NCBI RefSeq assembly: GCF_018139625.1 | Contig: NZ_JAGSOH010000082.1 | Location: forward strand, 1-32,957 | Origin: Actinospica acidithermotolerans | GTDB taxonomy: Bacteria > Actinomycetota > Actinomycetes > Streptomycetales > Catenulisporaceae | Length of the DNA: 32,957 nt | Reading direction: 5' to 3' | Shown here: piece by piece, positions 29,040-31,275 of the stretch | How the letters are laid out: every line of letters begins with the position of its first letter | Position numbering within the stretch: position 1 is the stretch's first letter | Notes under the pieces: generated by a model | The model's input: the letters and a program-made list of their open reading frames with translations, nothing else | Told to the model about the DNA's origin: nothing | The model's database searches: none | Translations under genes and position numbers: made by a program

Positions 29040-30080
29040 CTACGCCGCGGCGTCCGCCAGGTTCAGCGTGCGCCACGGGCTCGCCGGGTCCTCGGCGAGG
29101 ATCCGGTGCACCCGGCGAATCGAGCGGTAGTACCGGCTCCGGTCGCCGTCCTCGAAGTGCAGGAGCCGGCCGAGGATGTACCCCGCCGAGAACTCGCGCC
29201 AGTCGCGGTAGGCCGCGGCGGCGAGCTGCCCGGCCCGCTGCACGGTCTCGCGCGCCTCGTCCATGTCGCAGAGCTTCGTGGCCGCCGCCCAGCGCGCCAG
29301 GTTCACCGCACGTCCGTAGTCCCACGCGCGCACGTCCGGCGGCGCGTCCCCGGCCTCGGCCTCCCAGATGCCGTCCGAGCGCAGGGCGGCGAGATGCCGC
29401 GCGACGGCTCCCGGGTCCTTGCCGACCGCCTCCGCCGCGCTGCCCGGGTCGGTCAGCAGGTTCTCCACCGCGGCGCGCCAGTGGTCGTACTCGGTGATCC
29501 GCCAGCCCTCGCGCATCAGCCGCACGTCGGCCGGATAGTCCTTGTACACGTGCCCGATCGTGTTCCACGGCGCCTCGTTCTGCACCGCCAGATGCGCCCC
29601 GCAGGCGAGCGCCGCGGCCAGCGGGCCCTGCCGCGGCCTGTTGTCCGCGGCGATCAGCCGGTCGCCGTAGTCGGAGAAGGGCCGGATCGCCTCCGGGTGG
29701 TTGTCCACCCAGGAGGCCAGCTTCTTCACCGGTATCCGGCCCTCGTGATCAGAACCCTGGTTCACGACCAGCTGCCAGGTGAGCGGCGCGCACTTGCGCA
29801 GCATCGTGCGCAGCGTCATCGCGTGGTACACGAAGTGCGGCCCCGGGTCCACGGTCTGATTGGGCGTCACCGCGTAGACCTTGTCCTGGCCCCCGATGTC
29901 CTGCACCAGGCCGAGCGGCGCCCGGGGATCGTCGAAGCCCTCGTCGGCGAGCCGCCGGGAGCCGAAGACCAGCAGGTGAGTGTCTGACAGGGCCCGCAGA
30001 TAGCCCTCGAGATCCCCCCGCTTCAGCGCTTCCAGCAGGCGCTGTTCCACTGTGGCGGTCTGCGGTACCACCACGCCCAT
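29040..30080 (-). CDS. DUF1266-domain protein
   Basis: 346 residues. The C-terminal part reads VRLMREGWRITEYDHWRAAV, then WDYGRAVNLARWAAATKLCD, then DEARETVQRAGQLAAAAYRDW and EFSAGYILGRLLHF, which is the DUF1266 pattern of paired helices. The N-terminal 170 residues resemble an SseB-like domain (LEALKRGDLEGYLRAL, LLVFGSRRLADE) only weakly. Cytoplasmic. Function unknown. ATG 30080 with a G-rich leader (GGGGGGTGGGAGA) directly upstream. Divergent from the SPFH gene. Confidence 0.8.
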   Translation of the reverse strand: MGVVVPQTATVEQRLLEALKRGDLEGYLRALSDTHLLVFGSRRLADEGFDDPRAPLGLVQDIGGQDKVYAVTPNQTVDPGPHFVYHAMTLRTMLRKCAPLTWQLVVNQGSDHEGRIPVKKLASWVDNHPEAIRPFSDYGDRLIAADNRPRQGPLAAALACGAHLAVQNEAPWNTIGHVYKDYPADVRLMREGWRITEYDHWRAAVENLLTDPGSAAEAVGKDPGAVARHLAALRSDGIWEAEAGDAPPDVRAWDYGRAVNLARWAAATKLCDMDEARETVQRAGQLAAAAYRDWREFSAGYILGRLLHFEDGDRSRYYRSIRRVHRILAEDPASPWRTLNLADAAA

Positions 30081-30122
30081 TCTCCCACCCCCCGGAGTGA
30101 TTCCCCTTCAAAAGCGCGGCCC

Positions 30123-30128
30123 AGTCTA
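30123..30128 (-). promoter_or_regulatory. -10 box of the DUF1266 gene
   Basis: Minus strand TAGACT (30128-30123), about 42 bp before ATG 30080. No clear -35 box. Confidence 0.35.
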
Positions 30129-30197
30129 GTCGAGTCCGCGGAGACAGGGCGAGCACGCGGTTTCGCGGTTCCCCTTCCCTCCGGGCTTCGGACGGGG

Positions 30198-30203
30198 TAT
30201 GGT
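30198..30203 (+). promoter_or_regulatory. -10 box of the candidate small RNA
   Basis: TATGGT, the same hexamer as before the tRNA unit. It would start transcription near 30210. A -35 box is not clear. Confidence 0.35.
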
Positions 30204-30217
30204 CGGTTGCATTGAGG

Positions 30218-30252
30218 CGCGTTCCACTATCTCCCCCCCGTAGTGGAACGCG
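30218..30252. repeat. Perfect 12-bp inverted repeat with C-rich loop
   Basis: CGCGTTCCACTA at 30218-30229 and its complement TAGTGGAACGCG at 30241-30252, loop TCTCCCCCCCG. It works equally as an operator for a dimeric regulator on both divergent promoters or as an RNA hairpin. Confidence 0.85.
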
Positions 30253-30283
30253 GACCTCCCACCGGTCCTCAGTGACCGTGTCC

Positions 30284-30339
30284 GGCGGCCCCGCGCTCCC
30301 CCCGTGGCGCGGGGCCGCCCCCATATTCTTTTTCTTTTT
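30284..30339 (+). terminator. Intrinsic terminator with no gene before it
   Basis: A perfect 13-bp G+C stem (30284-30296 with 30307-30319) followed within six bases by TTCTTTTTCTTTTTC. This is the best classical terminator in the window. It points toward the SPFH gene, 88 bp ahead of its start codon, and the upstream gene is on the other strand, so it must end some other transcript. Confidence 0.85.
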
Positions 30340-30373
30340 CGGCGTATTCCCGCCGTCCGCGCGCGGCCGGTTG

Positions 30374-30379
30374 TAGTGT
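30374..30379 (+). promoter_or_regulatory. -10 box of the SPFH gene
   Basis: TAGTGT, after the terminator and 48 bp before ATG 30427. If used, the SPFH gene is independent of the RNA upstream. No -35 box is clear. Confidence 0.35.
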
Positions 30380-30426
30380 GACGGCCGACGGCCCGCCGGG
30401 CCACCGAAGTCACAAGGGGGCGGCAC

Positions 30427-31275
30427 ATGCCAGCCATGCGCAATGTCATATCCACGCTGGACAACCAGGGGCGGGAGGTGATGGGCCCCGGCGTGCTGCT
30501 CTACCACTACGCCGATCCCAACATCCTCAACGGCTCGCTGATCACGGTCGAGTCGAACCACTTCTGCGTCCTCAAGTCGCGCGGCGCCATCCTCAACGTC
30601 TACGACACGGGCCAGTTCCAGCTCGAGACCCCCGACCGCCCGCTGTTCGGCTCGATGCAGCGCTCCTTCTACGGGGGCCAGTCGCCGTGGCAGTACGAGG
30701 TCATCTACATCAACCGCGCCAAGTCGGTGATCAAGGCCCGCGGCACCGCGCTGTCCCGGGAGATGGCCGAACTGTCCTACGAGGTGGACTACTACATCCA
30801 CATCGAGACCAAGGAGGACGCGCTCAAGCTTGTCCAGCACATGCCGGTGGCCGGCCACATGGTCAACGCCAACGAGGTCAACGAGTACGCCGGGCCGGTC
30901 GTCGAACAGGCCGTCAACCAGATCGTCCAGGTGACCCCGCTCGAGCAGGTCAACGAGAAGATCCACGAGATCAGCGAGCTGGTCTCCGGCCACCTGCAGG
31001 AGTTCCTCGGCGTCTACGGCATCACCCTGAACGACGTCAAGGTGCTGATCAAGCCGCAGGACGAGCGGATGCGCGAGCTGCTCTCGCTGCGCGCCTTCGG
31101 CATGACCGAGCAGGAGGCCATGCGCGCCTACCTGGCCCTCAAGCTCGCCGACCGCGGCCTGGCCGTGGCCGTCAACGCGCTGCTCGGCGAGCCCCTGCAG
31201 GTCGCGCTGCTGCCCTCCAACCTCTACGGCGACGTCGCGCAGCTGGGCCTCGGCAACGGGAGCCTCCAGAGGTGA
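30427..31275 (+). CDS. SPFH-domain (virion core protein-like) protein
   Basis: 282 residues. MRNVISTLDNQGREVMGPGV, then LLYHYADPNILNGSLITVES, QFQLETPDRPLFGSMQRSFY, GQSPWQYEVIYINRAKSVI and then an SPFH stretch (YYIHIETKEDALKLVQHM, TPLEQVNEKIHEISELVSGH, YGITLNDVKVLIKP). Resembles the actinobacterial SPFH/Band-7 group once called virion core protein. No membrane span or C-terminal zinc ribbon, so soluble or peripherally bound. Role unknown; some members act with dynamin or tellurium-resistance gene sets. ATG 30427 has AAGGGGG six bases upstream. Its TGA overlaps the next start by 4 bp. Confidence 0.85.
   Translation: MPAMRNVISTLDNQGREVMGPGVLLYHYADPNILNGSLITVESNHFCVLKSRGAILNVYDTGQFQLETPDRPLFGSMQRSFYGGQSPWQYEVIYINRAKSVIKARGTALSREMAELSYEVDYYIHIETKEDALKLVQHMPVAGHMVNANEVNEYAGPVVEQAVNQIVQVTPLEQVNEKIHEISELVSGHLQEFLGVYGITLNDVKVLIKPQDERMRELLSLRAFGMTEQEAMRAYLALKLADRGLAVAVNALLGEPLQVALLPSNLYGDVAQLGLGNGSLQR

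Follow-up and report, generated by a model that had tools for sequence, protein, structure and literature searches.

In staphylococci, small RNAs of the RNAIII type start their contact with messenger RNAs through C-rich loops, and they do so without Hfq. They belong to another lineage than the one considered here, and we liken them to the RNA described below by description. Such RNAs with C-rich loops are named in PMC2764107 (cited, like all sources here, for a part of its content), and the part concerned describes no identifiable Hfq in mycobacteria and Streptomyces. The closest described system is the 6C RNA (RF01066; B11 in Mycobacterium tuberculosis, cgb_03605 in Corynebacterium glutamicum), which is likewise actinobacterial and also has two C-loop hairpins, the second with a U-rich tail; the two stem-loops carry about six or more C each (PMC8388888 and PMC4046766, in part). 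In C. glutamicum it is given, in the part of the source used, as about 100 nt long, against about 125 nt for the RNA predicted here. The 6C RNA of M. smegmatis interacts with the panD and dnaB mRNAs, its over-expression inhibits growth, and the screen as described in the cited part found no chaperone (PMC8628891). Extra 6C copies, annotated as 6C and folding like the regular one, occur in mycobacteria (PMC9569102, in part), so that there too a genome may hold more than one C-loop RNA, whereas the RNA reported here lies below the Rfam cut-off. Finally, the Streptomyces sRNAs scr5583 and scr1434, which were detected by Northern blot, have C-rich loops (PMC3765725, in part); compared by description, each is presented with one such loop, against two here. 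Among the papers listed in our literature search, none concerned a small RNA of such kind for Actinospica.

We will focus on an element of Actinospica acidithermotolerans that lies in a stretch of 32,957 nucleotides (contig NZ_JAGSOH010000082.1, positions 1 to 32,957, called the window). To judge from its sequence, this element most likely encodes a regulatory RNA of about 125 nt, which would be a divergent relative of 6C or a look-alike. We give a probability of about two in three to the reading in which it is a self-standing gene for a trans-acting 6C-like sRNA, endowed with a promoter and an intrinsic terminator of its own, and in which the C-loops would pair with G-rich leaders. This reading is based on structure, covariation, homologues, independence from the neighbouring genes and loop identity with 6C, all assessed by sequence.

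Architecture of the predicted RNA element

The element sits between divergent genes, as the first-pass annotation of this DNA had noted, with a DUF1266 gene on the minus strand and an SPFH/Band 7 gene on the plus strand (Table 1). The perfect hairpins of 12 and 13 bp, the C-runs in their loops and the T-rich tract that had been claimed are all present in the sequence: hairpin 1 is made of 12 Watson-Crick pairs (30218-30229 / 30241-30252) and a closing U-G pair, hairpin 2 of 13 pairs (30284-30296 / 30307-30319) and a U-G pair, and the C-runs are of 7 in loop 1 and 6 in loop 2. A clamp, in which GAGG (30214-30217, the end of the 5' sequence) pairs with CCUC (30255-30258), extends hairpin 1. A U-rich tail comes after the GC-rich stem of hairpin 2, and the two make up a predicted intrinsic terminator. 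The TATGGT box that had been proposed just before the 5' end is also found there, six bases 5' of 30210, and it is conserved in three species; a -35 could not be assigned. The consensus scan returned no promoter and missed this terminator as well, since it asks for T at a distance of 0-2 bases from the stem.

Table 1. Coordinates of the predicted RNA element and of its neighbours in the window
Feature	Position	Strand	Remarks
DUF1266 gene	29040..30080	-	start 30080; leader CCGGGGGGUGGGAGAAUG
-10-like box TAGACT of DUF1266 gene	30123..30128	-	conserved in three species
-10-like box TATGGT of RNA gene	30198..30203	+	within a block conserved in three species of the genus
Predicted RNA gene	30209..30340	+	~125-132 nt; 5' end inferred at ~30209-30210
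5' sequence CATTGAGG	30210..30217	+	invariant in 4/4 homologues
Hairpin 1	30218..30252	+	loop CUCCCCCCC at 30231-30239; 11-mer UCUCCCCCCCG at 30230-30240
Linker with small middle hairpin	30261..30281	+	predicted fold; register differs in G003
Hairpin 2, terminator stem	30284..30319	+	loop CCCCCCGU
U-rich tail of terminator	~30323..30339	+	seen in the sequence; weaker in relatives
-10-like box TAGTGT of SPFH gene	30374..30379	+	3' of the terminator; TAGGGT in two relatives
SPFH/Band 7 gene	30427..31275	+	start 30427; leader CACAAGGGGGCGGCACAUG

The computed fold of 30209-30340 has a minimum free energy of -68.1 kcal/mol, against -41 +/- 3.2 in 200 shuffles (z -8.44). The z-score is -4.85 when the flanks are included (30190-30350), and -5.06 for the homologue of a second genus (genome G003, see below). 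To appreciate how rare such hairpins are, we sampled 342,619 bases from 21 stretches of the 7.9-Mb genome and counted the hairpins in which 10 or more pairs, G-U included, follow one another without a break and the loop has 6 or more C in a row. Three were found, namely both hairpins of the element and the second hairpin of the 6C RNA of this genome, hairpin 1 of the latter being outside those three; 30 shuffles of the sample gave 30 single C-loop hairpins and no tandem pair.

Some frames on each strand are free of stops in all four known copies, which means little over so short a GC-rich stretch (123 bases). The translations differ between the G003 copy and those of Actinospica, which are separated by indels of 5, 4 and 1 bases, and together with the compensated changes in the stems this makes the element not obviously protein-coding. 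The minus-strand open reading frames at 29749-30993 and 30126-30464 were set aside as shadow ORFs, with no Pfam match.

Homologues, covariation and genomic surroundings

A DNA search gave matches in all three genomes of the genus and in 5 of the 14 of the family. The match in G003, found by DNA similarity before any covariance model was made (E 1.8e-6), is a true homologue, while a 44-base match in G007 (L008) is due to chance and has no C-loop hairpin nearby. The G003 copy retains the 5' sequence, a -10-like TAGAAT that aligns with TATGGT, both C-loops and the terminator; its loops have C-runs of 6 and 5, hairpin 2 thus carrying five C and not six. The stem of hairpin 1 is largely different there, and that of hairpin 2 has two compensated pairs. 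In the MAFFT alignment of the four sequences, with the structure specified, 5 of the 31 pairs show compensating changes and 97.5% of the cells are paired, against at most one compensated pair and at most 50% paired when the partners are slid by 1-3 columns. Taken separately, hairpin 2 has double changes in 3 of its 14 pairs and all of its cells paired. RNAalifold's own structure comprises 37 pairs, of which 7 are compensated, and adds the middle hairpin. A search for covariation of the stems in related genomes had been suggested as a check, and its outcome is favourable, in that both stems covary; as three of the four sequences are close to one another, the evidence is good without being deep.

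From the four homologues we built a covariance model, which scores its own members at 143.9, 141.1, 140.4 and 94.3 bits by construction. Among 293 genomes of the order, 74 have a match at E<=1, and the four model members stand apart. The next best match in these genomes reaches 49.1 bits (G127) and has one C-loop hairpin only. The 26 other matches that were read as loci (L090-L115) are all without a tandem C-loop pair; in seven of them, one or two isolated C-loop hairpins lie close by, on one strand or the other. In 394 genomes of the class, four matches were found at E<=0.001, the window's and three others, two of which were rejected for want of a C-loop hairpin, while the third, in G511, is the 6C-like RNA L122 described below. 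Ten genomes of a third genus of the family, a sister genus, yielded no convincing homologue: four of them have weak matches of 20-31 bits, and the two that could be read as loci (L097, L102) were rejected, with no C-loop hairpin. A search of the plasmid collection by distant blastn gave no match.

The three Actinospica copies (G000-G002) have the same flanking genes, and in this genus a separate, conserved -10-like box belongs to each of DUF1266, the RNA and SPFH. The G003 copy is located instead between a HAD-hydrolase-like gene on the same strand and AHSA1-type genes on the opposite strand. The HAD gene ends about 100 bases 5' of the RNA, and a 3'-UTR origin of the RNA is possible in this genome. 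The SPFH gene of G003 and its follower are on a separate contig (C428), with no C-loop hairpin in the 760 bases upstream on the SPFH strand, and no DUF1266 homologue was found in the two G003 stretches examined. Because the RNA is kept in G003 with other neighbours and SPFH is unlinked from it, the element looks like a separate RNA gene rather than an attenuator of SPFH. The small RNA reading that had been put forward from the letters of this stretch is thus supported by covariation, by the conserved -10-like box and 5' sequence, and by persistence beside different genes.

As to the SPFH protein itself, it has 44 relatives (L037-L080; 54-92% identity) spread across Alicyclobacillus, Sphingomonas, Chloroflexi and other MAGs. 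In the ten genomes of the third genus, it is without a match at E 1e-10. Horizontal transfer of the gene is one possible reason for this distribution.

Relation to the 6C RNA and the shared loop sequence

No Rfam family matches the element at its cut-off. The score of RF01066 is 26.9 bits (E 0.13) against a gathering cut-off of 47, and 6C is one of six near-matches below cut-off. The others were rejected: sX5 (30158-30201), which has a better E-value than 6C (0.0099), scores 22 bits of 50, and CC1840, M23, Ysr209 and Scr3920 are far below their own cut-offs. The G003 homologue scores 30.6 bits with RF01066, and scores of 25-32 bits are also obtained at scattered sites in related genomes. The output of the RF01066 search of the genome itself does not contain the window element, which we read as a loss in the first look. 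The same genome has a regular 6C RNA on contig C44 (57.6 bits), with which the window RNA co-exists. A 6C RNA over the cut-off is found in 12 of the 14 genomes of the family, the exceptions (G001 and G008) being drafts of more than 900 contigs; in the order, 290 of 293 genomes have a match at E<=0.05 and 137 of 293 are over the cut-off.

The window RNA shares with 6C the two tandem stem-loops and the loops with at least six C, but its stems do not adjoin. The inner stems are separated by 31 nt (25 after the clamp), a space that holds the middle hairpin and measures 31-32 nt in the four homologues, whereas in 12 6C RNAs that were scanned it is 0 or there is a slight overlap. The stem sequences, the upstream region and the location are different as well. 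The window RNA is therefore 6C-like by design and outside RF01066 by score and spacing. It may be a diverged 6C copy or have a separate origin, its score lying among the scattered 25-32 bits.

Other C-loop elements were seen along the way. In another family (G511), L122:1501-1589 on the plus strand is a 6C-like tandem C-loop RNA with 41.6 bits for RF01066 (cut-off 47), the 5' sequence of which, GCATTG, resembles that of the window RNA. The third genus has a separate C-loop element in all ten genomes (L172-L181, G004-G013; for example L030:631-791, minus strand), which is present in none of the four genomes of the first two genera. In its fold (L172, L178), an outer stem encloses one C-loop hairpin and a long one follows. 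By eye, six of the genomes have two such hairpins, and the other four (L176, L178, L180, L181) have three. That it follows a gene end is not clearly borne out, as the nearest preceding open frame varies (7/10 loci).

The 11-mer UCUCCCCCCCG occurs twice in the 7.9-Mb genome, in hairpin 1 of the window RNA and in hairpin 2 of 6C. In five genomes it has 11 sites, and at 9 of them an unbroken stem of 8-14 pairs, G-U included, closes the loop. For comparison, a stem of at least 8 surrounds 1.3% of 97,550 sampled positions. With orthologues omitted, 5 of 7 sites are loops. The two sites left have stems of 6 and 2 and appear by eye to be coding. Among these sites are three further hairpins, with unrelated stems of 8, 9 and 14 pairs (L185:1524 + and L186:1484 + in G002, L188:1489 - in G001), and that of L186 is followed, by eye, by a terminator-like hairpin. 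Because the same 11 letters surround the loop, the window RNA and 6C probably overlap in their targets. It is a more tentative and rather doubtful idea that 6C, the window RNA and the three further hairpins form one C-loop network, which would present the 11-mer on different stems and share targets or a C-loop-binding protein.

Possible targets and alternative readings

In the reading that we favour, the gene would be transcribed from its own promoter up to the intrinsic terminator, to give an RNA of about 125 nt in which two long stems would hold up the C-rich loops. By analogy with the 6C RNA, these loops would act as chaperone-free seeds, pairing in trans with several mRNAs at G-rich stretches, for the most part at their ribosome-binding sites, and the translation or stability of these mRNAs would be altered. 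Promoter function, transcription, the exact ends, pairing in trans and the direction of regulation are the parts of this scheme that we infer. When the genome was scanned for G-rich leaders that could pair with the loop, 23 sites were found, repeats and the window's own antisense strand included, against 16 for the reversed pattern; since this is no clear excess, no target list can be given. A 20-base sequence, GGGGGGAGGTGTGCGGGATG, is found three times in the genome (G000:C113:7111, C387:9 and C387:34450) and possibly belongs to a repeated or mobile gene.

The best surviving alternative, which we nevertheless consider unlikely, is that the RNA would act chiefly on the genes next to it and would mask the G-rich ribosome-binding sites of DUF1266 and SPFH. 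An action on both had already been proposed, along with a computed pairing of loops and leaders. We ran this pairing against 197 leaders of the same genome, both neighbours included, with gene starts set roughly, either at the ATG/GTG furthest upstream or by a purine-rich choice, which makes the ranks approximate. It came out partly in favour: the duplex of loop 1 with the DUF1266 leader (-20.9 kcal/mol) is the best among the 197 leaders, and that with the SPFH leader (-13.8 kcal/mol) is among the best 8-10%. Moreover, both neighbour leaders have GGGGG, which is present in 9 to 14 of the 197. Across the three species this run is kept for both genes, and the SPFH leader of G003 has it too. However, the full match to DUF1266 is not conserved: GGGAGA is missing from its leader in the two other species despite identical loops, and the pairing there attains only -12.6 (loop 1) and -13.2 kcal/mol (loop 2), although the GGGGG run is retained. 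Furthermore, the G-run may merely be a ribosome-binding site, and RNA and SPFH are unlinked in G003.

We find it quite improbable that the element is a mere terminator or insulator between divergent genes, its C-loops having no further meaning. Hairpin 2 and the U-tail are indeed terminator-like, single C-loop hairpins are found at several of the weak matches elsewhere (that of L094 has a U-rich tail), and Streptomyces terminator stems covary too (PMC12207403, in part). However, no gene reads in from the left in Actinospica, and a terminator would leave unexplained the conservation of a promoter-like block, of the 5' end and of loop 1, the presence of another hairpin that has no U-tail, and the 11-mer identical to that of 6C. 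As for a role in the SPFH operon, as its leader or as a transcription attenuator (the latter also raised in the first-pass annotation), the element is on the same strand and its terminator lies about 90 bases 5' of SPFH, but this reading is very improbable, given the conserved -10-like box of SPFH 3' of the terminator, the absence of the hairpins from the SPFH strand over 760 bases upstream in G003 (they are kept with SPFH in G000-G002), and the lack of any anti-terminator pairing in the computed folds of the element and of the flanked stretch.

The reading as a self-standing 6C-like sRNA gene bears on how actinobacterial sRNAs find their targets. C-loop RNAs in which, as here, the linker is long escape the Rfam 6C model. 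An unlinked RNA with the loop letters of 6C on other stems would separate the loop from the scaffold, and if the two can be separated, it would offer a direct test of whether C-loops alone set the targets.
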